From positions 1 to 35,913 of IMG/VR virus record IMGVR_UViG_3300036770_001498: DNA of 35,913 bases, one strand, 5' to 3'. The position numbers and the translations under genes are program-made. The stretch is from a virus. The notes beneath the pieces are model-generated. The model did no database searches. It was not told the DNA's origin and worked only from the letters and a program-made list of their open reading frames with translations. Of the stretch, positions 6,774 to 26,204 are shown one piece after another (the stretch's first letter is position 1; each line of letters starts with the position of its first letter).

Positions 6774-7061
6774 ATGAACGAACTAATTAAAGAACTTGCT
6801 GAACAGGCTAATTGGTGGAAACCTCTTGGATTGCCAAGTGACTGGAACGAAGGCGACTATGTTGTTAGCCCAGAACAGATGGAAAAGTTTGCCGAGTTGA
6901 TCAAACAGGCAATCTATGATATAGTTAAGGAAGAACTTATTCCAGATGATATCATTGCTGAAGAAACTCCTCAATTACAAGAATACCTTAAGGGCTGTAA
7001 TGGTGGTACGGTAGACGCTCTATGTCATATTAAAAACTTTGGAGTTGATCGTGATGAATGA
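6774..7061 (+). CDS. HFGVE-family protein, longer paralogue (95 aa)
   Basis: N-terminus MNELIKELAEQANWWKPLGL...MEKFAELI repeats the gene at 6125. It has a longer acidic insert (EELIPDDIIAEETPQLQEYL) and ends KNFGVDRDE, a variant of HFGVE. GGAG at 7041-7044 lies before the overlapping start of the next gene. Function unknown. Confidence 0.85.
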   Translation: MNELIKELAEQANWWKPLGLPSDWNEGDYVVSPEQMEKFAELIKQAIYDIVKEELIPDDIIAEETPQLQEYLKGCNGGTVDALCHIKNFGVDRDE

Positions 7062-7266
7062 ACGCATTAAAGAGTTAATAGCAGAGTGCCAGGAATACAG
7101 GCCGGGTTTTGATGGGCAAGAGGATTGGTACACCGTGTTTAACAAACAAAAGTTCGCCGAGTTGATTGTTCGGGAATGTGCCCATATTGCCGAAGTGAAT
7201 CAAGCAGAAAACATGGGCTGGAATATTGGTGAGATTATCAAAGAACATTTCGGAGTTGAACAATGA
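7054..7266 (+). CDS. HFGVE-family small protein (70 aa)
   Basis: MNERIKELIAECQEYRPGFDG, KQKFAELIVRECAHIAEV and IKEHFGVEQ: a full family member. The start at 7054 restores the MNERI beginning; GTG at 7051 is an alternative closer to the GGAG. It overlaps the previous gene by 8 nt. Its own GGAG at 7252-7255 is 7 nt before the next ATG. Confidence 0.85.
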   Translation: MNERIKELIAECQEYRPGFDGQEDWYTVFNKQKFAELIVRECAHIAEVNQAENMGWNIGEIIKEHFGVEQ

Positions 7267-8285: not shown

Positions 8286-8513
8286 ATGAACGAAAGACTT
8301 CTAAACATTTGCAAGAAACTTGAGGCTGAGTCAAAGTTATACTGCGTTGATGGAACTGAATTTGACTTGCAGAAAGACTCGCACAAATTTTTTGCTGAAT
8401 TCTTCTACGAAGAGATTGTAAATGAGTGCGTTAATGTTATAATGAATAGCACAGATAGGCATAGGAAAGAATACTTCGCTGGTCTGCTGAGAAAAGAACT
8501 AGGAGAAACTTGA
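8286..8513 (+). CDS. Divergent HFGVE-family relative (75 aa)
   Basis: Keeps MNERLLNICKKLEAE, a FFAEFFYEEIVNECVNVI core matching KFAELIVREC in position, and a C-terminal RKELGET in place of HFGVE. It still has AGGAG at 8501-8505 in its last codons, ahead of the overlapping next gene. Function unknown. Confidence 0.75.
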   Translation: MNERLLNICKKLEAESKLYCVDGTEFDLQKDSHKFFAEFFYEEIVNECVNVIMNSTDRHRKEYFAGLLRKELGET

Positions 8514-9367
8514 TTGAAAGAACTGTTATGTTTAAGCTAAAAGAATACCACAAAGATCAACATTGGAACCGCTATGCATTCAATGTGTCCAATCCATATG
8601 AATACTATGAGGGTCGCGATGGTGAACGCGGCACTAATTGGTGTATGCTAAACATCGCCTTTGGTAAACACTCTTGGTGGTGGCAGATTCCCGAAATCTT
8701 CAAGCCACGCAAGAAGTGGGTAGATACCAGCAAATATGAGTGGTCAAAGAATCCTCGTGGTGGATATTGGGAACACATTCGCCGTGAGTACGGGTTCACT
8801 ATCTCAGAAGATAACATCCATCTGCACTACGGCATTCAACCTGGATGCTGGTCTTCAAGAGACAAGAAGAACTCCGACCATACCAAGCTGTTTGGTATTC
8901 CTTGGTTGCAAAAGCGATACATCCATGAGAAGTTCTACACACCAGACTGGAGAGTATTTGGTGTCTGCACGCCTCTGAAGAGTGGCGGACTGGACTTTGA
9001 TTTGCTCCATAAGATCAAAGACATGGTTCCGAAGATCAAGTTTCGGTTCAATGACTTTGACGGTGAAGAAATCATCGCCACTTGCTACATCAGCGAGATG
9101 CGGCACGAACACGGAACTAGTTGGTTCAAGTGGTTGAAATATTTCGTAAAGCCTCTAATTACTCGCCGACTTGATCTTGAGTTCAGCAAAGAGATTGGAT
9201 ACGAAAAAGGTAGCTGGAAGGGCGGCACTATGGGCCACTCTGTTGAGATTGAATATGGAGAAGATCCAATGCAAGCATTCATTCGATATGGAACATCTGA
9301 AGATAGTTACAAGAATCATGGAACGAAGAATCGTGGATTCACTAACATTATGAGGATTGAGTTATGA
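8510..9367 (+). CDS. Hypothetical protein (285 aa)
   Basis: Large for this region, aromatic-rich (Trp, Tyr, Phe) and beta-looking, with HSWWWQIPEIFKPRKKW, IHLHYGIQPGCW and repeated His/Asp/Arg residues. No known catalytic motif could be assigned. The start is uncertain: TTG at 8510 is 4 nt after AGGAG, while ATG at 8528 (MFKLKEYHK) lacks a good site. It overlaps the preceding gene (if the TTG start is used) and the following one. Confidence 0.75.
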   Translation: MIERTVMFKLKEYHKDQHWNRYAFNVSNPYEYYEGRDGERGTNWCMLNIAFGKHSWWWQIPEIFKPRKKWVDTSKYEWSKNPRGGYWEHIRREYGFTISEDNIHLHYGIQPGCWSSRDKKNSDHTKLFGIPWLQKRYIHEKFYTPDWRVFGVCTPLKSGGLDFDLLHKIKDMVPKIKFRFNDFDGEEIIATCYISEMRHEHGTSWFKWLKYFVKPLITRRLDLEFSKEIGYEKGSWKGGTMGHSVEIEYGEDPMQAFIRYGTSEDSYKNHGTKNRGFTNIMRIEL

Positions 9368-9558: not shown

Positions 9559-9965
9559 GTCAAGTAGTAAGAGCAATTGAAGCGCACGATACGGGTAATC
9601 GTAAAGTTATCAGAGATGGGTTTTCTCCATTGTTTCAAGATGTCTTTAGTGTAAAATCAGAAATTCGCGAAGATCCAATGCCCTTGGCTACGGAGTATCG
9701 TATCGGTGTGACTATTGGTTCTAAGGTGATGGTTGAACAATCGTCAATGCGTGAACATCGTAATGAGTTGGTGCCGAACAATAAAAACTTCAACTGGGAA
9801 CTTCATGAAGCAATCTTACGAACAAAGAGACAAGTTATTGAAGCAATCTTTGGTGAGTTTCGCACAGACTTCAAGATGATTGAACGTGCCCTCTATGATC
9901 GTGATTATCAGAAAGCACGAGATTATCTTCGTGTTTTTGAAGACAAAATGTATAATGGAGTATAA
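9555..9965 (+). CDS. Hypothetical protein (136 aa)
   Basis: Soluble. The N-terminal half is beta-like (LATEYRIGVTIGSKVMVEQ). The C-terminal half is helical and charged (EAILRTKRQVIEAIFGEFRTDFKMIERALYDRDYQKARDYLRV). No family recognised. It overlaps the gene at 9364 by ATGA and ends next to the following start. Confidence 0.75.
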   Translation: MSQVVRAIEAHDTGNRKVIRDGFSPLFQDVFSVKSEIREDPMPLATEYRIGVTIGSKVMVEQSSMREHRNELVPNNKNFNWELHEAILRTKRQVIEAIFGEFRTDFKMIERALYDRDYQKARDYLRVFEDKMYNGV

Positions 9966-9966
9966 T

Positions 9967-10488
9967 ATGAGTAACTACAAATTTCACGCTATCAACGAGT
10001 TCAAGGCTTGCGGCTGGACTGAAGACGGCGTAACATTCAAAGACGAAATGCAAGGAGCAATCTGCGCCCATGTTCTTGATCTACTAGATACATTTGCCAG
10101 TGAAGGACATTCGGGTAGCAGCGCACCGTATGCAATCAATCTGTTCAAGAAACTGGCGATGTTTGAGCCGCTTGCGCCGTTGACTGGTGAAGACTGGGAA
10201 TGGAACGAAATCGCAGATGATCGTACTAACGGCGTGACAGTCTATCAGAACAATCGCCTGAGTTCAGTGTTCAAGCAATCTGATCGATTTGATGGTAAGC
10301 CTTACTGGCTAGATGCAAAAGTCTTTTGGAGCTGGGTGGCATATCCCGACGTTGATGAAGGTAAGCCGTACAAAAGCTACTACACGAGTTATGCCTCCAG
10401 TCAAGTTATTGAGTTTCCGTGGATCAAGCCAGAACATCCAGAATATGTATTTGTGCCTACAGATGAATTTCCTAATGAGGTGTTATAA
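9967..10488 (+). CDS. Conserved phage hypothetical protein (173 aa)
   Basis: Contains LDLLDTFASEGHSGSSAPYAINLFKKLAMFEPLAPLTGEDWEW, a set of motifs I know from phages with small-gene arrays, without known function. The C-terminal half is aromatic (WSWVAYPDVDEGKPYKSYYTSY). The start at 9967 was chosen over a longer frame from 9880, because that frame overlaps the previous gene and GGAG at 9956-9959 lies 7 nt upstream. Confidence 0.8.
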   Translation: MSNYKFHAINEFKACGWTEDGVTFKDEMQGAICAHVLDLLDTFASEGHSGSSAPYAINLFKKLAMFEPLAPLTGEDWEWNEIADDRTNGVTVYQNNRLSSVFKQSDRFDGKPYWLDAKVFWSWVAYPDVDEGKPYKSYYTSYASSQVIEFPWIKPEHPEYVFVPTDEFPNEVL

Positions 10489-12578: not shown

Positions 12579-13355
12579 ATGGCACGAAAAGCAGCAGCAA
12601 AAACATCAGACATACACGGAGAATCACACGAAAATCAACAGCGCGGGCAGACAACAAACGCACTCAAGCTGAGAATTGACAATCTGAAAACTTTTGATCC
12701 ACTCACAGACAATCAGAAGTTATTCTTTGAGTCATACAAGCGTGGAGATTACTTCATCGCACTACACGGCGTAGCAGGCACAGGTAAAACATTCTGCGCA
12801 CTCTACAAAGCACTAGAAGAAGTTCTAGACAAAGCAAATCCATTCAATAAGATCATCGTAGTTCGCTCTGCGGTACAGTCACGAGAGATCGGTCACTTGC
12901 CTGGTGACGCATCTGAGAAGATGGAGATTTATCAACAGCCATACAGACAAATTTGTCATACACTCTTTGATCGCAAAGATGCATGGGATCGCTTAGAAGA
13001 GCAAGGGCACATTGAATTCATCTCAACATCATTCATTCGTGGCATGTCATTTGACGACGCAATCATCATCGTGGACGAATGTCAGAATTGCAATTATCAA
13101 GAACTTCAAACTGTTATAACACGAGTTGGATATAGATCAAAAATCATATTCTGTGGAGATTACAGACAAACTGATTTGAATAGAAATAAGAACGATGTAT
13201 CTGGAATAAAAAAATTCTTAGAAATAGCATCCACGATGAGTTCTCACACTAGAATTGAATTTGGAATTGAAGACATTATCAGATCAAGTTTAGTTAGAGA
13301 TTGGATTATCGCAGAAACTATGTATGATGATAAAGAGTATTTCAATAAAAAATGA
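12579..13355 (+). CDS. phoH: PhoH-like P-loop ATPase (258 aa)
   Basis: ATPase of the PhoH family, frequent in aquatic phages. Walker A is GVAGTGKT at residues 64-71. The VRSAVQSREIGHLPGD block (about 95-110) is typical of PhoH. Walker B is AIIIVDECQN at 161-170. A sensor-like FCGDYRQTD lies near 192-200. The N-terminal 35 residues are a polar, likely disordered extension. The family's role in phages is unsettled; RNA-helicase or phosphate-stress roles have been proposed. An A/T-rich hairpin (13360-13379) follows the stop. Confidence 0.9.
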   Translation: MARKAAAKTSDIHGESHENQQRGQTTNALKLRIDNLKTFDPLTDNQKLFFESYKRGDYFIALHGVAGTGKTFCALYKALEEVLDKANPFNKIIVVRSAVQSREIGHLPGDASEKMEIYQQPYRQICHTLFDRKDAWDRLEEQGHIEFISTSFIRGMSFDDAIIIVDECQNCNYQELQTVITRVGYRSKIIFCGDYRQTDLNRNKNDVSGIKKFLEIASTMSSHTRIEFGIEDIIRSSLVRDWIIAETMYDDKEYFNKK

Positions 13356-14129: not shown

Positions 14130-14892
14130 TTTCAAGAAACTGAATGAAAAGATAAACTCAAACGAGCACGTAAAGTCTTTCTTTCAGAATCTAAAAAATT
14201 ATAAGTTTGATTTCATAGAAAATTCTGTGAAAGTAACTAAAGACAGAGTGTATACTGATAGACATTTGATTGGTCAGAATAAATCTGATCATGCAAAAAA
14301 TGATATGTTGACTGTATTGTCTAGAATAACTACAAATTCTAATCTAATACAGAAATGCAAAAGTCAGTATTCACTCTGCGATAGATACGGATTTGCTATT
14401 GAAGTCGGCGATAAAGTAAATTACAGAATCTATTTTGAAACTGAAATGACTCCTTACAGAAAAGAAGTTGTCGCAAAAGACGGAAGAGATAGAACTGTAA
14501 CTATTACTGGATATAGATGGGACTCAGGAGAAGATCACAACTATGTGACAACAGAATATAGTCATTTACTTGACATAAGCAAGAGTAATATAAAGAGCGA
14601 ACTATCTAAGCTGGAATTGAAATATGTTCCAGCTTATTTTGACAAGCACGAGCTACTGAGATTCTATACAGTAAAAGAAGACAAGACAAAGCGCAATTCA
14701 CTGTGCTTTCAATTGAGAAATTTTACTGTAGATTCTTTGCGCGAAGAAATGACAAGTTTGAATAAAGATGCTACAATACACATTGACGAATACGGAAAAA
14801 CAAAGACAAGCAACATCTCATACGGTATAGACAAAAACGGAAATCTATTCTACACACACTACTTCCTATTATATAATGCAGTTTACTCATAA
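14110..14892 (+). CDS. Hypothetical protein (260 aa)
   Basis: No recognised family. The N-terminal part is helical and Asn/Lys-rich (NNFKKLNEKINSNEHVKSFFQNL). The middle is beta-like (YGFAIEVGDKVNYRIYFETEM, RTVTITGYRWDSG). It overlaps the end of the homing endonuclease by 20 nt and has no clear ribosome-binding site. The endonuclease insertion may therefore have replaced its original start, or translation is coupled. Its last codons contain a sequence resembling the early promoters. Confidence 0.7.
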   Translation: MYLTHNNFKKLNEKINSNEHVKSFFQNLKNYKFDFIENSVKVTKDRVYTDRHLIGQNKSDHAKNDMLTVLSRITTNSNLIQKCKSQYSLCDRYGFAIEVGDKVNYRIYFETEMTPYRKEVVAKDGRDRTVTITGYRWDSGEDHNYVTTEYSHLLDISKSNIKSELSKLELKYVPAYFDKHELLRFYTVKEDKTKRNSLCFQLRNFTVDSLREEMTSLNKDATIHIDEYGKTKTSNISYGIDKNGNLFYTHYFLLYNAVYS

Positions 14893-15535
14893 AGAAATAG
14901 CTCTGTCTGAACTCAGCACAAAGTCGCTTGACGGAAAGCGCTTTTATCAAACACCAGATGGAAAGCTCTATCCGTCAGTGACTACAGTAATGTCTTTATA
15001 CAACAAGAAAGAGATCATGGAGTGGCGGCAGCGAGTTGGTGCTGAAGAAGCAAATAAGATTGCAAGCAAAGCCGCGCGAAGAGGAACGAATCTACACACT
15101 GTCTGCGAGAACTATCTGCGCAACAACGTAGACATGAGCAAAGTAATGCCAACAACTTTGCAATTGTTCAAATCAATTCAGCCTTGGATTGATAAATATA
15201 TCAACAACGTGTATGCAATTGAAGCTCCACTGTATTCGGATCATCTTCGCGTCGGTGGGCGCGTCGATTGCGTCGCAGAGTTTGATGGTCAGATGGCTAT
15301 CATAGATTACAAGACCTCAAGCCGACAAAAAGAAGAAAGCAAGATTCAGAATTACTTTATGCAGTGCGCAGCGTATGCTGTGATGTTTGAAGAACGAACT
15401 GGAATTGCAGTGCCACGCATCGCAATCGTCATGGCAGTAGAGAACTCAGAGCCTTTGCTGTTCGTGAAGAAGCGAGACGATTACATTGAAAAATTCATCT
15501 CCTTGAGGAACAAATACGCAAAACTCAATCCGTAA
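14876..15535 (+). CDS. PD-(D/E)XK exonuclease, RecB/Cas4-like (219 aa)
   Basis: Single-domain nuclease found in T4-like aquatic phages. Catalytic signatures are RGTNLHTVCENYL (70-82), E117 (AIEAPLYS), GRVDC (129-132, D131) and IIDYKTS (142-148, D144 and K146), with the QxxxY helix at Q163-Y167. The LYPSVTTV segment near residue 32 is typical. It likely degrades or trims DNA during recombination or host genome breakdown. It overlaps the previous gene by 17 nt, and its ATG lies inside a TATAAT box. Confidence 0.85.
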   Translation: MQFTHKEIALSELSTKSLDGKRFYQTPDGKLYPSVTTVMSLYNKKEIMEWRQRVGAEEANKIASKAARRGTNLHTVCENYLRNNVDMSKVMPTTLQLFKSIQPWIDKYINNVYAIEAPLYSDHLRVGGRVDCVAEFDGQMAIIDYKTSSRQKEESKIQNYFMQCAAYAVMFEERTGIAVPRIAIVMAVENSEPLLFVKKRDDYIEKFISLRNKYAKLNP

Positions 15536-15548
15536 AGGAGAAACATCA

Positions 15549-15869
15549 ATGAACATAAACAGAATAGCCGTCGCAATCATTGTCACTATCACGTTGACAA
15601 TGATGTTCTATATGAAAAATGCTAAGGCCGAGCCTATGCAGTTGCAAAAGATTGTTTTTTGTGATAAACTAGAGAAAGTGGTATCAACTTTATCAAAAGA
15701 GTATGATGAAAAACCACTGTGGGCAGGCAAAGATGATGCGACTCAGTATGCTATTACATATAATGAAAAAACAAAATCTTGGACTATCATTCAATTTGAC
15801 AAAGACATAGCATGCATTCTAGGTACAGGTGAAGCTGGTCATCTGATATATTTTCCAAACTCAGTTTGA
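15549..15869 (+). CDS. Secreted or anchored small protein (106 aa)
   Basis: The N-terminal IAVAIIVTITLTMMFYM segment (6-22) followed by KNAKAEP looks like a Sec signal peptide with an AKA-like cleavage site near residue 27. The mature part has two Cys (FCDKLEK and IACILG) that could form a disulfide in the periplasm. Similar small exported proteins are common in aquatic T4-like phages; function unknown. AAAGGAG precedes the start. Its stop overlaps a late-promoter-like box. Confidence 0.75.
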   Translation: MNINRIAVAIIVTITLTMMFYMKNAKAEPMQLQKIVFCDKLEKVVSTLSKEYDEKPLWAGKDDATQYAITYNEKTKSWTIIQFDKDIACILGTGEAGHLIYFPNSV

Positions 15870-15875
15870 TAAATA
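15868..15875 (+). promoter_or_regulatory. Candidate late promoter box (GATAAATA) before tmRNA
   Basis: One base different from the T4 late consensus TATAAATA. By T4 spacing the transcript would start near 15881, about 15-20 nt before the predicted tmRNA. It is placed as expected for a dedicated promoter but is otherwise unsupported. Confidence 0.35.
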
Positions 15876-15895
15876 GTCACTTATGATCGTATGAA

Positions 15896-16182
15896 GCGAA
15901 GAGAAAAGTGTTGCGGACGGCGGTTCGATTCCGCCCAGCTCCACCAAAAGCATTCTATCTCAACCTGACGAGGAAGGATCGAAAGAACTAAAAAGAATGC
16001 TTCTGATGGGGCTGACCTGGTTTCGACGTGGCAAAGAGTAACAGAGTGGACGATCCGGTAGATGACGACCGTAAATCGCATAAAACTATAAATGCAAATG
16101 ATGCATATTTTGGAGACCTTCGCCTAGCGGCGTAAACTCCATGGGGTTTCGCTGGCTGTCCTTATTATCCAATCAGCCAGCA
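15896..16182 (+). ncRNA. ssrA: Circularly permuted (two-piece) tmRNA
   Basis: Transfer-messenger RNA, which with SmpB rescues stalled ribosomes and tags the nascent protein. The two halves are in reversed order. The acceptor piece comes first: GGAC, then the T-arm (GGCGG, loop TTCGATT, CCGCC; 15919-15935), CAGCTCC (15936-15942), A, CCA (15944-15946). After a 61-nt intervening segment comes the coding piece from GGGGCTGACCTGG (16008). GGGGCTG pairs with CAGCTCC and includes the G3-U wobble that alanyl-tRNA synthetase recognises. GCAA (16031-16034) can pair with TTGC (15911-15914) as the start of P2. The resume codon is GCA at 16094 and the tag is ANDAYFGDLRLAA, ending at TAA 16133-16135 inside a P5-like GGAG/CTCC hairpin. 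An 8-bp GC-rich hairpin (16151-16181) probably closes the coding piece. The exact 5' and 3' ends are estimates. Confidence 0.93.
15947..16007 (+). other. tmRNA intervening segment removed from the precursor
   Basis: It joins the CCA end to the GGGG 5' end. Its edges are complementary: AAGCATTCT (15948-15956) and AGAATGCTT (15994-16002), extending the acceptor stem by 9 perfect pairs. This is the layout expected for a permuted tmRNA precursor cut by tRNA-processing nucleases such as RNase P on the 5' side. Confidence 0.8.
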
Positions 16183-16208
16183 CTAACAACGAATGAGAGA
16201 ATATCAAA

Positions 16209-16751
16209 ATGGCACATCCTGAACAAAGACAATTTCTCAGAGAAATTAGGCAAAAGTTTCCTCAAGCATTCAAAACAAACTCTGTTCTTGAAGTGGGAAG
16301 TCTAAACATTAACGGAACTGTTCGCGACTTCATCATTGCAAACAAATACATTGGTATTGATGTTGGCGCTGGCAGAGACGTTGACGTCGTGTGTGAGGGT
16401 CACAGATACGATGATCCAGACGACAGTTTTGACACAGTAATCTCATGTGAATGCTTTGAACACAATCCGCACTGGAAAGAAACGTTCTCCAACATGCACA
16501 GATTGTGCAAGTCATCTGGATATGTTATAATGACATGTGCGACAGACGGAAGAAAAGAACACGGCACAACAGCATCACATCCGAACGATTCTCCACTGAC
16601 AATCGCGAACGGATGGAATTACTACAAGAATTTGAATGAAGCAGATTTTCGTGAAGCATTTCAGTTAGATGAGATGTTCTCTGAGTATGAATTTTCAGTC
16701 AACACAAAGAGTCATGACCTTTACTTTTGGGGCATTAAAAAGCCTGTTTAG
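16209..16751 (+). CDS. SAM-dependent methyltransferase, class I (180 aa)
   Basis: Motif I is SVLEVGSLNINGTVR, an EVG variant of the usual ExGxGxG. YIGIDVGAGRDVDVV gives the acidic residue after strand 2. FDTVISCECFEHNPHWKETFSNMHRLCKSSGYVIMTC covers motifs IV to VI of Methyltransf_11-type enzymes. The substrate is unknown; phage copies may act on sugars, tail glycans or small molecules. It starts just after the tmRNA and its end overlaps the next gene. Confidence 0.8.
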   Translation: MAHPEQRQFLREIRQKFPQAFKTNSVLEVGSLNINGTVRDFIIANKYIGIDVGAGRDVDVVCEGHRYDDPDDSFDTVISCECFEHNPHWKETFSNMHRLCKSSGYVIMTCATDGRKEHGTTASHPNDSPLTIANGWNYYKNLNEADFREAFQLDEMFSEYEFSVNTKSHDLYFWGIKKPV

Positions 16752-17244
16752 GGCAACGTTCATTTGCGCAGCAATTGCATTACCAACACTACTGGATTAT
16801 GAAGAAACTGAGTTTTACTCATATGATTTTATCCAGAGAGAAGTAAAAGTTGCGCAAAATGATTTGTATTGGCTTGCACTCAACATCTATCACGAAGCGC
16901 GAAATCAACACTTTTTTGGCAAGCTAGCAGTCGGCATAGTCACACTGAATCGAGTGCATAGTCCAAGATATGAAGACACAATTGAAAAAGTTGTCAAAGA
17001 GCATAAGCAATTTTCTTGGTATCACACGAAGAAAAAACATGCTCCAAAAGACATGGCTGCATGGAAAGACTGTCTTCGTATCGCAAAGCTGATATTGACA
17101 AGAAGTTCAGAGATTGATATAATGAAACATCATCTCAAATCGGTGACACACTATCATGCAACTTATGTGAGGCCAAAATGGAGCAAATCTTATCAGCGCG
17201 TAATTCAGATCGGAGATCACATCTTCTACAGGCAGAAAAAGTGA
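16714..17244 (+). CDS. Cell-wall hydrolase, SleB/CwlJ type (176 aa)
   Basis: The N-terminal hydrophobic segment (LFRATFICAAIALPTLL, about 10-26) fits a signal or signal-anchor sequence. The hydrolase domain follows: WLALNIYHEARNQHFFGKLAVGIVTLNRV with the catalytic Glu of the YHEARNQ motif, then KQFSWYHTKKKHAP and a C-terminal YHATYVRPKWSKSY...GDHIFYR. The family cleaves peptidoglycan as a lytic transglycosylase-like enzyme, so this may be the phage endolysin (signal-arrest type). The start at 16714 leaves the signal at the N-terminus; a longer frame from 16669 exists. Confidence 0.85.
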   Translation: MTFTFGALKSLFRATFICAAIALPTLLDYEETEFYSYDFIQREVKVAQNDLYWLALNIYHEARNQHFFGKLAVGIVTLNRVHSPRYEDTIEKVVKEHKQFSWYHTKKKHAPKDMAAWKDCLRIAKLILTRSSEIDIMKHHLKSVTHYHATYVRPKWSKSYQRVIQIGDHIFYRQKK

Positions 17245-17492
17245 TGACGACACAAAAAGAATTCACCGGCTTATCAATCATCACATCAAATGAGTTTGAG
17301 ACACGAATCAAAACTATAATGAAAGACAGATCATCAACAATGATCGAGTCTATCGTGATGTATTGTGAGATGAACAATATTGAAATAGAGACTGCTGCTG
17401 CGCTGATTTCGCCTAGAATGAAGAGTGAGATTGAATCTGAAGCAATCAGTTCACGAATGATTATCAGTAAGAAGGCAAGACTACCAATCTAA
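17244..17492 (+). CDS. 33: Late transcription co-activator gp33-like (82 aa)
   Basis: Matches T4-like gp33 in length, position and the core SIVMYCEMNNIEIETAAALISPRMKSEIESEA. In T4, gp33 bridges RNA polymerase and the sliding clamp to activate late promoters together with gp55. The order gp33-gp59-gp32 is as in T4. The start at 17244 is set by TGATG overlap with the hydrolase stop; a longer frame from 17178 lies inside that gene. Confidence 0.8.
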   Translation: MTTQKEFTGLSIITSNEFETRIKTIMKDRSSTMIESIVMYCEMNNIEIETAAALISPRMKSEIESEAISSRMIISKKARLPI

Positions 17493-17503
17493 CGCATCAG
17501 CAC

Positions 17504-18103
17504 ATGGAAGCACTTGACGCATACAAAACATATGTCGCACTGAAAAATCACTTTACACTTGACACATACGATTACTTCAAGTATAATAAGAAAGCGAGAG
17601 TAAGTCATGACTCTTTCATGAAGAGACGAGACAAAATCTTCTTCGCTAAGCTAGGTTCAAAGAAGTCAGATAATCTAGAATCGTTTCTAGTCGCAAACCT
17701 TGTTCAGAATCCAAAAGTTTGGATCGGAGAACTTCTCTCAGAAGATGCTGAGTCGCGATACTTAGATTGGAAACGCAAGCAAGAGTCACTGACGTATTTG
17801 TTCAAGAGCGAGATTGATTTTCTTTCTGAGTATGACACTGAAGAAAAGTTGAATGAGTTCTTCTCTGTACCCAAAGATGGTTCACATCCACGCATCTTTG
17901 TCATGCTAATGAGAAATGAAATCTCAGTAGAAACTTTTATAATTCTTGATAGAATATTGAATTTCTGCAAGAAGTATGATAGAATCTACAGTGATCCACT
18001 ATACAAAGAGATAAGGAATAAATGCAAAAAGTACCAGCCATTCTTAGAAGTAGATATGCAGAAGATGAAGACTCATCTGAAGCAAGTGATAGGAATAAGC
18101 TAA
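17504..18103 (+). CDS. 59: Loader of DNA helicase gp59-like (199 aa)
   Basis: N-terminus DAYKTYVALKNHFTLDTYDYFKYNKKARVSHDSFMKRRDKIFFAKL is typical of T4 gp59. The C-terminal helical domain (PRIFVMLMRNEISVETFIILDRIL) also fits, and the length is close to T4's 217 aa. The protein loads gp41 helicase onto gp32-coated DNA at forks and recombination intermediates. It lies directly before gp32, as in T4. Confidence 0.85.
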   Translation: MEALDAYKTYVALKNHFTLDTYDYFKYNKKARVSHDSFMKRRDKIFFAKLGSKKSDNLESFLVANLVQNPKVWIGELLSEDAESRYLDWKRKQESLTYLFKSEIDFLSEYDTEEKLNEFFSVPKDGSHPRIFVMLMRNEISVETFIILDRILNFCKKYDRIYSDPLYKEIRNKCKKYQPFLEVDMQKMKTHLKQVIGIS

Positions 18104-18252: not shown

Positions 18253-19173
18253 ATGGCAATAAATTTCTCAGAACTAAAACGCGCACGTAATCGTGATCTA
18301 GAAAAACTAACCGCTCAAGTGACTAAACTTCAAGAGGGCGGTAACGAAAAGAAGAGCTACGAAGACACGCGATTCTGGAAGCCACAAGTAGACAAAGCTG
18401 GCAATGGCTTCGCTACAATTCGATTCCTACCCGCAGCGGGTGGCGAAGACATGCCTTGGGTTCAAGTCTTTTCCCATGGCTTTCAAGGTCCCACTGGGAA
18501 GTGGTACATTGAGAACTCTCTCACAACACTAAACAAGAAAGATCCAGTCTCTGAGTACAACTCAAAGCTCTGGAATTCTGGTCTAGATTCAGACAAAGAG
18601 ATTGCGCGAAAGCAAAAGCGCAAGCTCCAGTATATCTCTAACGTCTATGTTGTGAAGGATCCAGCTAACCCATCAAATGAGGGTAAAGTCTTTCTCTTCA
18701 AGTTTGGTAAGAAAATCTTTGATAAACTTAATGATCTAATGAATCCAGAGTTTGAAGATGAGACTCCAATCAATCCATTTGACATGTGGGAAGGCGCAAA
18801 CTTCAAGCTAAAGATTCGTAAAGTAGAAGGTTATCCTAACTACGATAAGTCAGAGTTTGATAAGCAAGCAGCGCTATCAGATGACGACGAAGAACTAGAG
18901 CGTATTTGGAAGAGCCAACACGCACTCAGCGAGTTCATCAGCGAATCTAACTTCAAGTCATATGACGAATTGAAGCAGAAGCTGTATGATGTTCTTGAGC
19001 TAGAAAATGATGACGTTGCTACAGTCAAGCCAACTGAGTCAATTTCACGCAAGCCTGACATTCAGAAGCCTGCGCCAGCTCAGAAAAAGAAGACAGTAGA
19101 AGACGAGAAGCCTTGGAAAGATGACGATGACGACGAAAGTCTGAGTTACTTCGAAAAGCTAGCTGAAGAGTAA
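18253..19173 (+). CDS. 32: Single-stranded DNA-binding protein gp32 (306 aa)
   Basis: The basic N-terminus (FSELKRARNRDLEKL) serves cooperative binding. The OB-type core has WYIENSLTTLNKKDPVSEYNSKLWNSG and LQYISNVYVVKDPANPSNEGKVFLFKFGKKIFDKL. An acidic tail (KDDDDDESLSYFEKLAEE) recruits partner proteins. The T4 zinc-knuckle cysteines are absent: the CPVC-like position reads DPVS (97-100) and the protein has no Cys at all. AAAGGA precedes the start and a shared terminator follows. Confidence 0.92.
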   Translation: MAINFSELKRARNRDLEKLTAQVTKLQEGGNEKKSYEDTRFWKPQVDKAGNGFATIRFLPAAGGEDMPWVQVFSHGFQGPTGKWYIENSLTTLNKKDPVSEYNSKLWNSGLDSDKEIARKQKRKLQYISNVYVVKDPANPSNEGKVFLFKFGKKIFDKLNDLMNPEFEDETPINPFDMWEGANFKLKIRKVEGYPNYDKSEFDKQAALSDDDEELERIWKSQHALSEFISESNFKSYDELKQKLYDVLELENDDVATVKPTESISRKPDIQKPAPAQKKKTVEDEKPWKDDDDDESLSYFEKLAEE

Positions 19174-19211: not shown

Positions 19212-22200
19212 TCAGAACATTCTAGGTCTAGTCACTGAGCGAGTAAACGCACCTGTGATTGGATTGTCACTGCGAACACCACCAGAAGACTGATTGACGA
19301 TGTTAGTCTGTGGGCTTGACACATTGTTCACTGTCTGATTGATCATAGAATTGTTGACTGAAGTCACAATTTCTTTCTCAGCTTGCAGAACTCGGTTCAT
19401 CTCTTGTTGTTGCATGTATGCGCTTGAGACTGGAGATGAAGATGCTTGTACGTTCTGTATCACAACTTCAGGTTTCTTTGTCGCGACGACAGCCTCAATT
19501 GCATTGCGTGCCATAGAATCATATGGAGAAGCATTCTTTAGTGCTTCAAAAATCTTGTGTGTTGGTATGACAGTTCCGCCTTGATTTGGAACAACGATTT
19601 CTGGTCCAGCTTCACCGACGAGCATAGGATGATTGCCAGCAAACTTACCGCCAGAAGCCCAACCTCCACCGTCACCGCCACCACCACCTCCTCCTGTATC
19701 TGATATTCCTTCCATTCCTGCGATGCCGCCGCCGTCAGATATTCCAACTCCAGCGGCAGCCGCAGCAGCCGAGTCAGCCGCGGCTTGTCCACCAGCATCA
19801 GCAGAAGCAGCAGCTAGCGCTGCGTCCATAGACGCAACTGAAATTCCAGCGGTAGTTTCTGCCGCAGTTACTGAAACAGTTCCATCTGCGGCTACAGCAA
19901 CAGATCCTCCAATAGCAGCAGCCGCTTCTGCCATAGACGATATGGCTTCAGCTTGAGCACTAATAGCATCCATTTGAGCATCGACAACAGCTTGTCCAGC
20001 AAGACCGATGACGGCACCAGTAACTCCGCCGAGAATACCTAAGCTCTCAGATATTCCCATCATGCCGAGACCCATTGATATTGCGGCTTCGCTGACAGCG
20101 GTAGAAACACCATCAGTTCCGGCAGAAACTGCATCACCGAGGCCACCTTCACCACCAATAACTTCATATACAGTATTAGCTAAACTAGACGCAGCATTAT
20201 TGACAAGCAGTGTAGTTTGCTCTGTTGTCAAATTCATTGCCGTGGCATAAGATGCAATAGCAGTTCCTGTCGCAGCAGTCAAAGCGTCAATAGAATTTGA
20301 TGTAAAATCTTCGACTGTGTATAGAGCAGAAGTTACAGTGTTTGCGGATGTAGTTAGACCGTCGATAACGCCTGAAGAAGATGATGTGACTGCATTGGTA
20401 ACAACTTGACTTGTATATTCAGCAGCATTAGACAATGAATTTATGTTATCTGCGAGAATTGCTTCTGGAGTATCTATATTAGAATATGCAGGATCAAAAC
20501 TTAGTTCTCCAGCAGGACCAGCTCCAATTCCACGCTCTCTCTGAGTAAATACAATTTCAACTGGTTCAGTGTTTGCGCCAGATGCAGTAATTTGATCCTG
20601 CACTACTCCAGCTTGCAAGAATTTGGTAGCAGCAATCATCACATCTGACAATGTTTCAGCAGCTTCTGCGGTTTGTCCAGAAGCATTATACTGTTCTCTA
20701 GCAGTAGCTACCATTTGCTGCGCAATATCTTGACGCTCTTCTAAACTCATCTTGAACATGTCTTCACTGAAAGCAACGCCAGAATCTTTGAGTTCCATCT
20801 GAGCAACTCTGAGATCCTGTTTCAAATTATCAAGACGAATTTGATTTCTTTCTTCTTCACTAAAAGCTAGTTGCTCAAATGTTCCCATCGTCTGCTGAAA
20901 CATTTCAGCACCACCGAAGCCTTCAACTAACTTGTCCATCAAATCAGATGTATAAACTTTCAAATAGTCGGCAGACATTCCCTCAATACTCTCTGGCAAT
21001 GCGAAGAATGTCTTAGGATCAATGAATCCCAATGCACGAATTGATGGTTCGGCAATCGTAAATGCATTACCAAGTCTTGCTAGTGCATCTGACGCACCCT
21101 CTCCGTCTTTCACGAATTGATCCATGAAAGGTAAAACCTTCTTGATCATGTTATCACTAAAGCCCTCAAATGCTTTAGTGATGATGTCCATTCTTTCCTG
21201 TTCAGTTTCTTTTCCAGTGAAACTTATCTTGATCGCTTCGGCGAATTCTGTAATGTCTTTTTTTCTATTGAATAATCCGAATATTCCTTTACCGCCGCCA
21301 CCATAAGTGGTACTCAATCCCAAATTCTGAAGTAGCTTCTTATTTGATTCACCAATATCTTTTGTTATATCACTAAATGCTTTTGCTGTTTCAGCATCAA
21401 GTGCTGAAACATTTACTCCACTCTTGTCGCTTCTGAGCCAACCGCCTTTTTGTGACCATTCTTCAAACTGCTGTATATTATTTTGACCTGTTCCAGAAAG
21501 TGTTCCCTCAAATCCTCTAGCGCCAATCTTCTTCTCTCCCATGCCAAAAACACGATTTGCGATACCTTTGATTCCTCCGGCAATTGCGCCGCCGATAGGA
21601 CCAAATACAGCAGAAGCGACAGCAACACCAGCATCACCCAGTTTATCCACAAAGTTATTCATCTTATATTCACCACCAATAAGACCTTCGGCCATTTTGC
21701 CATACTGATAGCCCTGAAGAACATTTCCTGCTATTCCAGCAGCCGTTCCGAACATGTGTGAAGTATTGCCAGATTGGAAAGCAGCGCTGATACCGTCCCA
21801 GCCCTGACCAGCAGCAGTTATACCTGTGCCAAAGTCCATGACTCCTTGTCTTGCGAAATTTGGCATCCAGTTACTCATTGCCATATTTGAGAACATGCCG
21901 CCGAGTTTATTCGGCAACGCTGACGCAGAAGAGCTAAAGAGTTGCCCCCATGACATGACGTCGCCTAAACCGAACTGTTTTCCTATGCTGCCTGGTAGAC
22001 TGAATCCTTTGCCTGTGACTAGAGACTGAATTAGATTGCCAGCTACGCCACTGAGTGCACCACCCATTAGATTGCCGCGTGATCTACCTCCAGTTAGTGC
22101 AGAAACAAGTGCAGCGCCAGCTAGATTACTTCCGATGCCAACAAGTCTTCCTCCAGCACCTGGTATTCCTCCGCCAGCTTGACTTTGTGCAAATGCAGGA

Positions 22201-25200
22201 CCGCTGAATGGATCGTTTACTCCACCACCATACTGAGGTGCAGCAACAAGATTTCCGTTCTGATCGTAAACAACAGTGCCGCCTCCCGGCGTCGTTGTTG
22301 GTCTCTGAGAATCAAATCCTCGTTGAATTCCAGTTGTGACTGCGTTTTCTATTGCTGGAGTGATTGTCTTATCATATGCACTAGTAATAGCGTCAGCAGA
22401 CATCTTAGCTTCTAGCTCACGCATTCTGACGACATCGCCAGCTTTCATCGCATAAGACTGTTTGTTCGTGCCAAACAGAGGATCAAACGGCGCTCCGAAA
22501 ACTGAAGCAAGATCCTTAGTGAGAAGATCAGCGCCACCGTACTGGTCGATCATGTTTCTTGGCGTCAGTGCGATGCCAGTCATTCCGTAGAGAAGATCGC
22601 CTAGAGCAGATTGGTTGTATTGCTTCTTTAGATCAGCTAGCTGTCTTTTCTGCGCTTCTTGTTGCTCAACTGTAGCTTTTAGTTGATTGTATTGTTGAAT
22701 GCGAGATAGTTGATCACCAGTAAAACCGCCCTTGCCCGCTGCGCGAATTATGTCAGCTTCAGTTACTTTGCCTTCTTTTTCAAACTTCTGAAGCTCTTCT
22801 CTTGATTGTGTCAACGATGCATTGATTTGCTTCAACTGAGGATCAACAACTTCAATTCCCTTCATGTATGTGTTGATTGAGCGATTGAGTATGTCAGCTT
22901 TCATGCCCAATGTTGGAGCTAACGTCTCATTGATAAACTCATTTAGATACACGCCGGCTAGTTGTTGGAATGTCTGACCAATGCCAGCTCCGTATTGCTT
23001 GCCGAAAATGAATGTCCCTAGCTGTGTAAAATTCTTTTGCAGTGTGTTAGTGAGTGTTGTTCCTGCATTGATCATTGCTTCAGGACCGAACGTACCTGCG
23101 GGTCCAGACAAAGCATCGACAATTGGCCTGAAAATTCCTTGCATCTGAGAGTGAAATTGCTCCTGAAGACGTCTTCTTTCATTTTCATATTCAGTTAATC
23201 TATTCAAACTCTCTTGATGATTTTTATTTTGATTTTCAATGTGTTTTCTGCTAAATTCTTCATCATTCCTTAGCTGCATTTCCAATTTTTTATTTTCAAT
23301 ATCAACTATAGTTCTCTGATACTTCTCGCTTTCCCTTTCTAAATTGATAAGTCTTTCTAGCTCTTCTGAGCTTAATTTTTCTTCATTCGCAGCAAGATAT
23401 GCGATCTCATTAGTTATATTTGTTAAATCATTCGTTAAACTTTCAATTGCAGATTCGTATGACGAGAATATTGAAATATCAACTAAACTTGTGTCAGCAG
23501 CTTCTTTAGGTAGTTTTTTACCAGTTACAGTAACGATTTGTTTAGCAGATGATGGCGCTGAAGATGAACTCGTCGGCATCGATGAAGATAATGCACTTTG
23601 TGACGATGCATTTTTTCCACCGAATGTTCCTTTTCCTAAATCTACTCCAGTCGATCCATCAAGACTAACGTGAAAGTGCCCACCAGTTGAATTTGCAGAT
23701 GGATTTGCATACTCATCTATAACTTTGCCGCCAGTTATGTTAGCTACAGCAGTCGCTATCGATTTTCTCACATCGTCATTCATCGCCATGTTTTGCGGAA
23801 TGACGAAATCAAATGCTAAGCCCTTAGTATGTAAACTTGCTGGAGCTTTTTCTTCGTGGTATTTGTCATTAAATCCAGTGAAACTTGCATAAGGAAATGC
23901 AGCTTGAACGCTCTTTGCGCCCTCAATCGTTTGTGGTGCAATAAATGCGCCCGCCTTTTGAGCTTGTTCTGGACCTCTCTTTGGAACATTTATTCCTAAA
24001 TCTCTCAAATCAGTTTCAGTATATCCTTTATTGCCTGATCTTGAAAGTCTTGCAGTTTCAGCAGCCGATTGATTATCGGCTTTGCCCATGACACTTGGCG
24101 TAGTGTCAGCTTTCATCGAAGACAAATCGGTTTTGCTTATGGAAAGTCTTTCTTTCCATCCAGCTTTCATCTCATCACTGATAAACTCTATAGTTCCAAA
24201 TCTAGTCTCAAATCTGCTCGGTATTGAATCGATGGCGGCGGCAATCATTCCATTGACGCCCTCTGTCATCCAATTAGCTATGCCCTCAATAAATGTTATT
24301 GCCGCATTATAAATTTTCTTCGCTGGATCTGAAATATATCTACTCAAAACATCAGTCAAATCACCTATCATACTGCTAAACGTGTTGCTCAGATCAACAC
24401 CAGCTCTGTCTATTGTGCCTTTATCAAAGGTGATTAATCCCTTCAATAGTGTGAATGTGCTTCCAATTATAGAGAATATGTCATTGAAGAAATTTGTCAT
24501 GTATGCAGTCATTCTAGACTGCATACTCTCTTGACCATCAACTTTGAAATCGGTTCCGAATACTGAATTTATTATCCATTTAACTGCATCTATTAATCCA
24601 CCAATGACAGAACCAATCAATCCGCCGAAGAACGCAGAGAGTCTATCCATCCAAGAAACATCTTCTTTTACTTTATTCAAATCTTTAGCAATTTGATCAG
24701 TATCAAATGAAGCAAAAATGCCTTCTACAGCAGATATGATCCATCCAATAAATGGTAGCTTTTTCAATACATTACTAAAGAGTGGTTTAGCTTTTTCTAA
24801 AATTACCATCAACTCTGGTATATCAAACAAAAACTTAAACACATCAGTTATTTTAGTAAATACTCCAGAAACAACTCCCCATGATTTACTGATATAAGCT
24901 AAAGCTCCGCCAGCGGCTGTAAATACTTTACCTAAGAATCCAGTTTCTCCAAACAGATATTTGAGTTCGTCAAATCCTTGAATTTGTTTACCTAAGTCAA
25001 ACATCATTCCCAACTCAGCAAAGTTGGGCAATTTGATCAATCCCATCAAGTCTGTAGCTATAAGTTTAAATCCAACAAAAAACTCATCAGCTATTAGAGT
25101 AAATTTGCTCGTTCTAAAAGCAGCAAATAACTCAGTGAATGAAGTTGATACTTTTGTAGAAAACTCATCAGCAAGAGTAGCTAATTTAGATTCGCGTAAT

Positions 25201-26204
25201 GATTTAAATATATCATCAAAAAAAGTTGATGTCTTACTTGCTACATCCGAAGATGCGCCAGCGACTTTAGTTGCATCTGTCAGTGCTGTTAGTCTATTCG
25301 ATATAGATTCATTTAGACTCTTAAACGAAGATCCCACTTTGCTAAAACCAGCAGAAATATCATCCAATATTAATGAAAATGCTTTCGCTAAATTTGATTC
25401 GGAAAATACTTTAATAGCGTCAGATACTGTTCCAAAAATCTTAGTTTTTAGTTCATTAAATCCTAGCTTCATCAGATCACGAACAAAATCTAATCCTTCA
25501 CCAAACATGCGAATGAAGCTACGAATTCCATCTCCTATTTGATCAAATTTGAGTAACTTACTCAACCCATCGAATTTAAAAAGTTTCTTTAGATTATCAA
25601 TCCAACCACCCAAAAGGTCACTCAGTTTGGGGAATTTAATTTTTTGAAAATACTTGAGAATATCATCAAATATGTTTCCAAATTTACTTGGAATCTTCTT
25701 CAAAAAGTCTGGTATAGCTTTCAGAAAGTCTGGAATTTTCTTCAAAAAATCTGGTATCGCTTTGACGAGATCAACAACTTTACCCAGACCACCTTTCAAA
25801 AAGTCCTTTACTGCTTGTAGCATTTTTCCTAGAGGAGAAAGCATATCAAACAAAGAACTCTTCTTAGTGAGTGCTTCTAGAATCTTAGCTACATCTTTTT
25901 GAATGAGTTCGAGATTAGACGCCATCGACTGAAATAGATCACGCACTGAGTCGTCATACTTTTTCTTTTCATTCTGACGCTCTTCTTCAAAGCCGCGAGT
26001 TCTTTGCTCTCTTTGCTGCTCACTTTTTTCAGATGTTTGTTGACGCTTCTCTAATCGTCTAAATCCACGCTCAAGTGCACCAACCATAGGAGTGAATCCA
26101 ACAGCACCAGACATAGAAGATTTGATGCCGCTGGATACACTCTTGAGTGATGACTTGATTGACGATGAGATTGCTTCGCCTAGAGATTTTGCTTGATCAG
26201 CCAT
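19212..26204 (-). CDS. Tail tape measure protein with M15-like peptidase motif (2330 aa)
   Basis: Largest gene of the window. The N-terminal region has short amphipathic repeats AIPDFLKKIPDFLKAIPDFLKK (149-170, repeat IPDFLKK/A), then long helical and hydrophobic stretches. Residues about 735-855 contain ASLHTKGLAFDF (H792, D799) and GGHFHVS (H843, H845), the zinc-ligand layout of M15-type peptidoglycan peptidases. A coiled coil follows at about 911-1020 (EELERLINLERESEKYQRT). The C-terminus is Gly/Ala-rich with the VGEAGPEIVVP motif common in tape measures. It sets tail length and enters the cell first at infection; the peptidase would help cross the wall. Far larger than T4 gp29 (about 590 aa). 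Transcribed after the gp26/51-like gene. Confidence 0.9.
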   Translation of the reverse strand: MADQAKSLGEAISSSIKSSLKSVSSGIKSSMSGAVGFTPMVGALERGFRRLEKRQQTSEKSEQQREQRTRGFEEERQNEKKKYDDSVRDLFQSMASNLELIQKDVAKILEALTKKSSLFDMLSPLGKMLQAVKDFLKGGLGKVVDLVKAIPDFLKKIPDFLKAIPDFLKKIPSKFGNIFDDILKYFQKIKFPKLSDLLGGWIDNLKKLFKFDGLSKLLKFDQIGDGIRSFIRMFGEGLDFVRDLMKLGFNELKTKIFGTVSDAIKVFSESNLAKAFSLILDDISAGFSKVGSSFKSLNESISNRLTALTDATKVAGASSDVASKTSTFFDDIFKSLRESKLATLADEFSTKVSTSFTELFAAFRTSKFTLIADEFFVGFKLIATDLMGLIKLPNFAELGMMFDLGKQIQGFDELKYLFGETGFLGKVFTAAGGALAYISKSWGVVSGVFTKITDVFKFLFDIPELMVILEKAKPLFSNVLKKLPFIGWIISAVEGIFASFDTDQIAKDLNKVKEDVSWMDRLSAFFGGLIGSVIGGLIDAVKWIINSVFGTDFKVDGQESMQSRMTAYMTNFFNDIFSIIGSTFTLLKGLITFDKGTIDRAGVDLSNTFSSMIGDLTDVLSRYISDPAKKIYNAAITFIEGIANWMTEGVNGMIAAAIDSIPSRFETRFGTIEFISDEMKAGWKERLSISKTDLSSMKADTTPSVMGKADNQSAAETARLSRSGNKGYTETDLRDLGINVPKRGPEQAQKAGAFIAPQTIEGAKSVQAAFPYASFTGFNDKYHEEKAPASLHTKGLAFDFVIPQNMAMNDDVRKSIATAVANITGGKVIDEYANPSANSTGGHFHVSLDGSTGVDLGKGTFGGKNASSQSALSSSMPTSSSSAPSSAKQIVTVTGKKLPKEAADTSLVDISIFSSYESAIESLTNDLTNITNEIAYLAANEEKLSSEELERLINLERESEKYQRTIVDIENKKLEMQLRNDEEFSRKHIENQNKNHQESLNRLTEYENERRRLQEQFHSQMQGIFRPIVDALSGPAGTFGPEAMINAGTTLTNTLQKNFTQLGTFIFGKQYGAGIGQTFQQLAGVYLNEFINETLAPTLGMKADILNRSINTYMKGIEVVDPQLKQINASLTQSREELQKFEKEGKVTEADIIRAAGKGGFTGDQLSRIQQYNQLKATVEQQEAQKRQLADLKKQYNQSALGDLLYGMTGIALTPRNMIDQYGGADLLTKDLASVFGAPFDPLFGTNKQSYAMKAGDVVRMRELEAKMSADAITSAYDKTITPAIENAVTTGIQRGFDSQRPTTTPGGGTVVYDQNGNLVAAPQYGGGVNDPFSGPAFAQSQAGGGIPGAGGRLVGIGSNLAGAALVSALTGGRSRGNLMGGALSGVAGNLIQSLVTGKGFSLPGSIGKQFGLGDVMSWGQLFSSSASALPNKLGGMFSNMAMSNWMPNFARQGVMDFGTGITAAGQGWDGISAAFQSGNTSHMFGTAAGIAGNVLQGYQYGKMAEGLIGGEYKMNNFVDKLGDAGVAVASAVFGPIGGAIAGGIKGIANRVFGMGEKKIGARGFEGTLSGTGQNNIQQFEEWSQKGGWLRSDKSGVNVSALDAETAKAFSDITKDIGESNKKLLQNLGLSTTYGGGGKGIFGLFNRKKDITEFAEAIKISFTGKETEQERMDIITKAFEGFSDNMIKKVLPFMDQFVKDGEGASDALARLGNAFTIAEPSIRALGFIDPKTFFALPESIEGMSADYLKVYTSDLMDKLVEGFGGAEMFQQTMGTFEQLAFSEEERNQIRLDNLKQDLRVAQMELKDSGVAFSEDMFKMSLEERQDIAQQMVATAREQYNASGQTAEAAETLSDVMIAATKFLQAGVVQDQITASGANTEPVEIVFTQRERGIGAGPAGELSFDPAYSNIDTPEAILADNINSLSNAAEYTSQVVTNAVTSSSSGVIDGLTTSANTVTSALYTVEDFTSNSIDALTAATGTAIASYATAMNLTTEQTTLLVNNAASSLANTVYEVIGGEGGLGDAVSAGTDGVSTAVSEAAISMGLGMMGISESLGILGGVTGAVIGLAGQAVVDAQMDAISAQAEAISSMAEAAAAIGGSVAVAADGTVSVTAAETTAGISVASMDAALAAASADAGGQAAADSAAAAAAGVGISDGGGIAGMEGISDTGGGGGGGDGGGWASGGKFAGNHPMLVGEAGPEIVVPNQGGTVIPTHKIFEALKNASPYDSMARNAIEAVVATKKPEVVIQNVQASSSPVSSAYMQQQEMNRVLQAEKEIVTSVNNSMINQTVNNVSSPQTNIVNQSSGGVRSDNPITGAFTRSVTRPRMF

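Follow-up and report, generated by a model that had tools for sequence, protein, structure and literature searches.

A circularly permuted tmRNA gene at a conserved locus of T4-like phages

Introduction

Does a T4-like phage carry its own ribosome-rescue RNA in two pieces and, if so, is such a gene a curiosity or a regular part of the genomes of its relatives? The window studied here, by which we mean the whole stretch of 35,913 nucleotides of viral DNA, had been credited in a preliminary description with a circularly permuted, two-piece tmRNA in a T4-like phage at 15896-16182, a form that was held there to be rare or not well described in phages and that might, it was suggested, supplant or compete with the host tmRNA when translation of the phage's overlapping genes stalls. 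The arrangement itself is borne out by ARAGORN, by the Rfam model RF04321, by the PHROG and Pfam context and by covariation, as detailed below; its presumed rarity does not withstand the literature. The two-piece tmRNA of the Methylophilales phage Melnitz was described in 2022 and its roles in infection discussed, in a study that lists 133 unique phage tmRNAs, 53 of them two-piece and 50 of these 53 from marine or aquatic phages (PMC9004378); a 2025 study assembled 79 unique bacteriophage tmRNA sequences and introduced RF04321 (PMC11915505), so that a dedicated Rfam model exists, and tmRNAs annotated in Stenotrophomonas phages score as permuted.

Results

Anatomy of the gene

A permuted tmRNA with the tag ANDAYFGDLRLAA, spanning 15854-16226 (+), is the sole gene called by ARAGORN in the window. 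In cmscan, RF04321 (tmRNA_permuted) matches over its full length at 15885-16135 with 143.5 bits (gathering cut-off 47, E 1.7e-28), and RF01850 (beta_tmRNA) also exceeds its cut-off, with 102.7 bits against 84 (E 2.2e-30); both the ARAGORN run and the covariance models proposed in the preliminary description thus favor the permuted form. These E-values, together with the cross-piece covariation in 193 distinct phage copies described below, exclude a chance origin of the match. The parts of the gene are as follows.

15885-15946, plus strand: acceptor piece, with the 5' strands of the joining helices, the T-arm (15919-15935), CAGCTCC and the encoded ACCA (RF04321, ARAGORN, covariation)
15947-16007, plus strand: intervening segment, predicted to be removed on processing (fold; end-to-end pairing in phage copies)
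16008-16182, plus strand, 3' end approximate: coding piece, with GGGGCTG, a D-arm-like region, the 3' strands of the joining helices, the tag frame and a 3' hairpin (RF04321, beta_tmRNA, ARAGORN)
16094-16135, plus strand: tag reading frame ANDAYFGDLRLAA with stop codon TAA (ARAGORN, translation)
16151-16181, plus strand: 3' hairpin of the coding piece, GCTGGCTG...CAGCCAGC (fold, coordinates)

The acceptor half lies upstream of the coding half, and the two are paired through the acceptor stem and the joining helices. The stem is of the alanine type that had been claimed, with seven pairs between CAGCTCC and GGGGCTG and a G-U at the third (G3-U70), and together with the encoded CCA it occupies 15936-15946 and 16008-16014; the piece ends are likewise those first proposed, ACCA ending at 15946 and GGGGCTG starting at 16008. 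The outer limits need one amendment: the first cross-piece helix starts at 15885, so that a 5' limit of 15896 is slightly short, and the 3' hairpin does fall inside the limits given. The tag frame has a resume codon, and the 61-nt intervening segment folds into a perfect 9-bp hairpin (15948-15956 with 15994-16002). Among the lineage models, that of the bacterial beta-type two-piece tmRNA scores best and has the same piece order, but the window gene scores lower than would be expected of bacterial members, has a divergent tag and lies in a phage locus.

Pairing between the two pieces

Viral contigs were scanned with four patterns for the permuted gene order, and further relatives came from neighbour searches and phage records; the 193 distinct phage copies of sufficient length among the matches listed were compared. 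Most acceptor bases are fixed by the search patterns, only pair 5:68 being free on both sides in all scans; this pair is standard in 193 of these 193 copies, as against 57% when partners are shuffled, and it occurs in five types (C-G, T-A, G-C, T-G and G-T). That five pair types are found at one site argues against simple inheritance, even though the related sequences are not independent. The joining helices are unconstrained by the patterns except at the last inner pair, whose coding-side base is the invariant final C of the fixed GGTTTCGAC. Among the same copies the inner helix is paired at 98.2% (79.5% shuffled), with 234 cells changed on both sides, and the outer at 92.5% (77.0% shuffled), with 170 such cells; sliding either helix by 1 or 2 nt lowers pairing to about 53% or less. 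Of 180 phage intervening segments among the matches listed, 93% pair end to end over 7 bp or more, as opposed to 30% when ends are swapped between sequences. Covariation across the pieces and end-to-end pairing of the segment between them speak strongly for the two pieces acting jointly as a single RNA.

A separate observation concerns permuted tmRNAs of the cyano type in which a full tRNA-Asn(GTT) gene makes up the intervening segment, a tRNA thus being nested between the pieces, as at about 6834-7095 of IMGVR_UViG_3300026321_000236 (L181) and about 2177-2569 of IMGVR_UViG_3300020472_000928 (L221); in a distant search, cyanophage S-SSM7 showed flanking pieces similar to those of the nested-tRNA forms.

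Gene neighbourhood

PHROG and Pfam matches place the gene in a T4-like block with the order PhoH, homing endonuclease, exonuclease, tmRNA, methyltransferase, endolysin, gp33-like, gp59 and gp32, after which tail and head genes follow. The conserved neighbours, recognized by synteny and by the matches given, are:

12579-13355, plus strand: PhoH-like gene, upstream (PHROG 170, Pfam PhoH)
14876-15535, plus strand: exonuclease gene, upstream (PHROG 298)
17178-17492, plus strand: gp33-like late promoter regulator, downstream (PHROG 254)
17504-18103, plus strand: gp59 helicase loader, downstream (PHROG 269, Pfam T4_Gp59)
18253-19173, plus strand: gp32 single-strand DNA binding protein, downstream (PHROG 224)

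At least 204 permuted genes remained after removal of identical copies, one of them bacterial; most of the loci were found by the tmRNA motif rather than by their neighbours, a few coming from gp59 or methyltransferase searches. Among the matches listed, 129 loci had, on the same strand and no more than 7 kb away, two or more of six marker genes taken from the window, and in 127 of these PhoH or exonuclease precedes the tmRNA and endolysin, gp33, gp59 or gp32 follows it. Many gp59 relatives have no permuted tmRNA within the stretch examined.

The closest described case is Melnitz (MZ577097), a T4-like phage with a permuted tmRNA and the order PhoH, nuclease, tmRNA, gp33, gp59, gp32; it differs in its tag (ANDNYVPVDYALAA rather than that of the window), in a glutamine riboswitch accompanying ssrA (PMC9004378), for which the window gives no Rfam match, and in that the window has the methyltransferase and endolysin between tmRNA and gp33. 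At the nucleotide level, similarity of the window to named phages goes no further than about 72%, with gp32 of marine cyanophages; at the protein level, the named relatives closest to its gp32 are from Melnitz and a marine single-cell virus, with about 55%.

The conservation of the locus bears on whether the gene might be a non-functional remnant taken from a host by recombination. Gene exchange was indeed suggested by the Melnitz authors as the source of that phage's tmRNA (PMC9004378), but neither piece of the window gene is damaged, its tag frame is whole and its halves still pair, and the covariation together with the fixed locus points to long-term selection in phages, which makes a remnant extremely unlikely.

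Elsewhere in the window, 8510-9367 and 9880-10488 have strong Pfam matches to anti-defence proteins, the CBASS inhibitor Acb3 (163.7 bits) and the type I Thoeris inhibitor Tad3 (111.9 bits), respectively. An open frame of 2330 residues at 19212-26204 (minus strand) has zero PHROG matches, and other T4-like contigs contain weak relatives of some stretches of it.

Upstream motifs

One further element lies just before the gene:

15868-15875, plus strand: putative T4-late-promoter-like element GATAAATA, whose end lies about 10 nt upstream of the first paired tmRNA base (sequence)

Among 190 phage copies in the matches listed, the 30-nt bin adjoining the first joining helix on its 5' side contains TAAATA in 52 and TATAAT in 47, as compared with 4-9 and 3-6 copies, respectively, in the other three 30-nt bins, and TTGACA peaks 30-60 nt upstream (27 copies versus 0-6 in the other bins). 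From this enrichment, phage transcripts seem to start right at the tmRNA, some from host-type and some from T4-late-type promoters. The window's own motif, a single match to a short consensus, suggests late expression of its tmRNA.

Degradation tags

In the window tag the usual final ALAA is replaced by RLAA, the last three residues, LAA, being unchanged; ALAA prevails among related phages, nearly all of which have a tag of the AN... form ending in xAA. Arginine or lysine stands at position -4 in 19 of 78 distinct phage tags among the matches listed (the window's included; five of the 78 were read by eye), as against 1 of 28 in a sample of distinct gammaproteobacterial tags (beta included) drawn from one-piece and permuted genes alike. 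Fisher's test gives p 0.02 by tag and 0.003 by locus, values that overstate independence because the tags are related by descent, and we regard the apparent excess as a lead rather than a result. Arginine at -4 also occurs in isolated Stenotrophomonas (Menderavirus) and Pseudomonas (Samunavirus SM1) phages, with the tags ANDDSYTVRIAA and ANDTSFDVRLAA; like the window, these carry permuted tmRNAs above the cut-offs of both RF04321 and beta_tmRNA, but in Menderavirus the gene adjoins tRNA genes and in SM1 it lies near PhoH in an otherwise different neighbourhood.

It could be argued from these tags that the main role of the RNA is altered tagging, the basic residue steering products to another protease or changing their decay relative to that of the host tag. 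The phage excess and the recurrence of arginine in window and isolates speak for this, as does a Mycoplasma ssrA tag reported to have switched protease (Gur and Sauer 2008, as cited in the review PMC9382460). The view is nevertheless unlikely: related phages mostly have ALAA, the window tag retains LAA, kinship among tags inflates the p-value, and a bacterial tag, ANDSFYGESRLAA, has the same form with a basic residue at -4. The complete tag frame bears on the idea of a decoy, by which the tRNA-like domain would titrate SmpB or otherwise inhibit the host tmRNA. That role was proposed for the tag-less tmRNA of mycobacteriophage DS6A, and a DS6A-like molecule expressed in E. coli does inhibit tmRNA (PMC11915505, PMC4131195); unlike DS6A, however, the window gene has a tag frame, resume codon and stop, and nearly all relatives keep a tag that a decoy would not need. 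A decoy is very unlikely here.

Two observations on individual genes may be recorded. In some phage permuted tmRNAs ARAGORN calls unusually long tags of about 28-29 residues, e.g. ANADTFDFSAMSFTGNSVTGKSKVALAA (contigs L231, L284, L253, L262, L270, L320, L341 and L289, with near-identical versions in more than one contig). The permuted tmRNA of Pseudomonas phage SM1 (L154, KU245542), at about 2480-2779 (RF04321, 118.6 bits), falls where the record has no feature.

Bacterial genomes

The Stenotrophomonas and Pseudomonas hosts of such phages would be expected to have a one-piece tmRNA. Permuted forms were rare in the bacteria sampled, exceeding the cut-off in 5 of 120 genomes from the order of Aquabacterium and in 3 of 185 from its class, in contrast to their presence in the isolated Stenotrophomonas and Pseudomonas phages. 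Bacterial contigs that share the 24-nt start of the gene did not point to a host for the window phage, most being one-piece by ARAGORN; one, from Aquabacterium terrae (L158, the bacterial member of the locus set), is permuted. A prophage origin of the permuted tmRNAs of Aquabacterium terrae and Cupriavidus sp. found no support, Pfam searches of ten nearby ORFs giving no phage families. An Aquabacterium terrae genome (G002) has both a permuted tmRNA with the tag ANQDVYHVEQMPLAA and a one-piece tmRNA with the tag ANDTSYALAA, on different contigs (L400 and L402), which may reflect assembly contamination.

Discussion

We consider it very probable that the circularly permuted tmRNA (ssrA) gene of this T4-like phage is functional and that its RNA would be cut, charged with alanine, bound by SmpB and used to rescue ribosomes and tag their products; ordinary trans-translation with host SmpB is the most likely mode of action. 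This reading starts from direct observations, namely the gene, its fold, the cross-piece covariation, the open tag frame and the conserved locus, and in its steps after transcription it draws on established knowledge of two-piece tmRNA. A single precursor would be transcribed from about 15881. The intervening hairpin, which prolongs the acceptor stem, would be excised by host tRNA-processing enzymes, presumably with RNase P cutting at 16008 and a 3' end made just after the encoded CCA (15946); the acceptor stem and two more helices would hold the two pieces together. Charged with alanine by virtue of G3-U70, the paired RNA would associate with host SmpB, release ribosomes halted on broken mRNA and supply their products with ANDAYFGDLRLAA as a degradation signal. 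On the simplest view, the phage would benefit because ribosomes are kept free during infection while host mRNAs are broken down.

Points against this account are the single promoter match, the RLAA tag end and the lack of an SmpB gene in the 35.9-kb window contig, which is possibly a fragment of a phage that may still encode one; host SmpB would also serve.

Given Melnitz, with its tmRNA in the same gene order, and the two-piece forms already counted, the window gene is not the first of its sort; it is a well-supported addition to the permuted phage tmRNAs already described, and, so far as this window is concerned, the outcome is one of confirmation. Novelty may lie in the description: the locus that is fixed in many phages, the promoter-like motifs just upstream of the gene and the class of tags with arginine or lysine at -4. 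A bolder proposal, that a large T4-like group has a near-fixed permuted tmRNA with its own promoter, part of it bearing the changed tag so that products are handled differently from those of the host tmRNA, strikes us as rather improbable. Be that as it may, a two-piece ribosome-rescue RNA of their own seems to belong to the regular gene set of many T4-like phages and not to be a rarity. The reason for which a phage should need such an RNA, and any effect of the altered tag on the fate of tagged proteins, therefore deserve to be tested.
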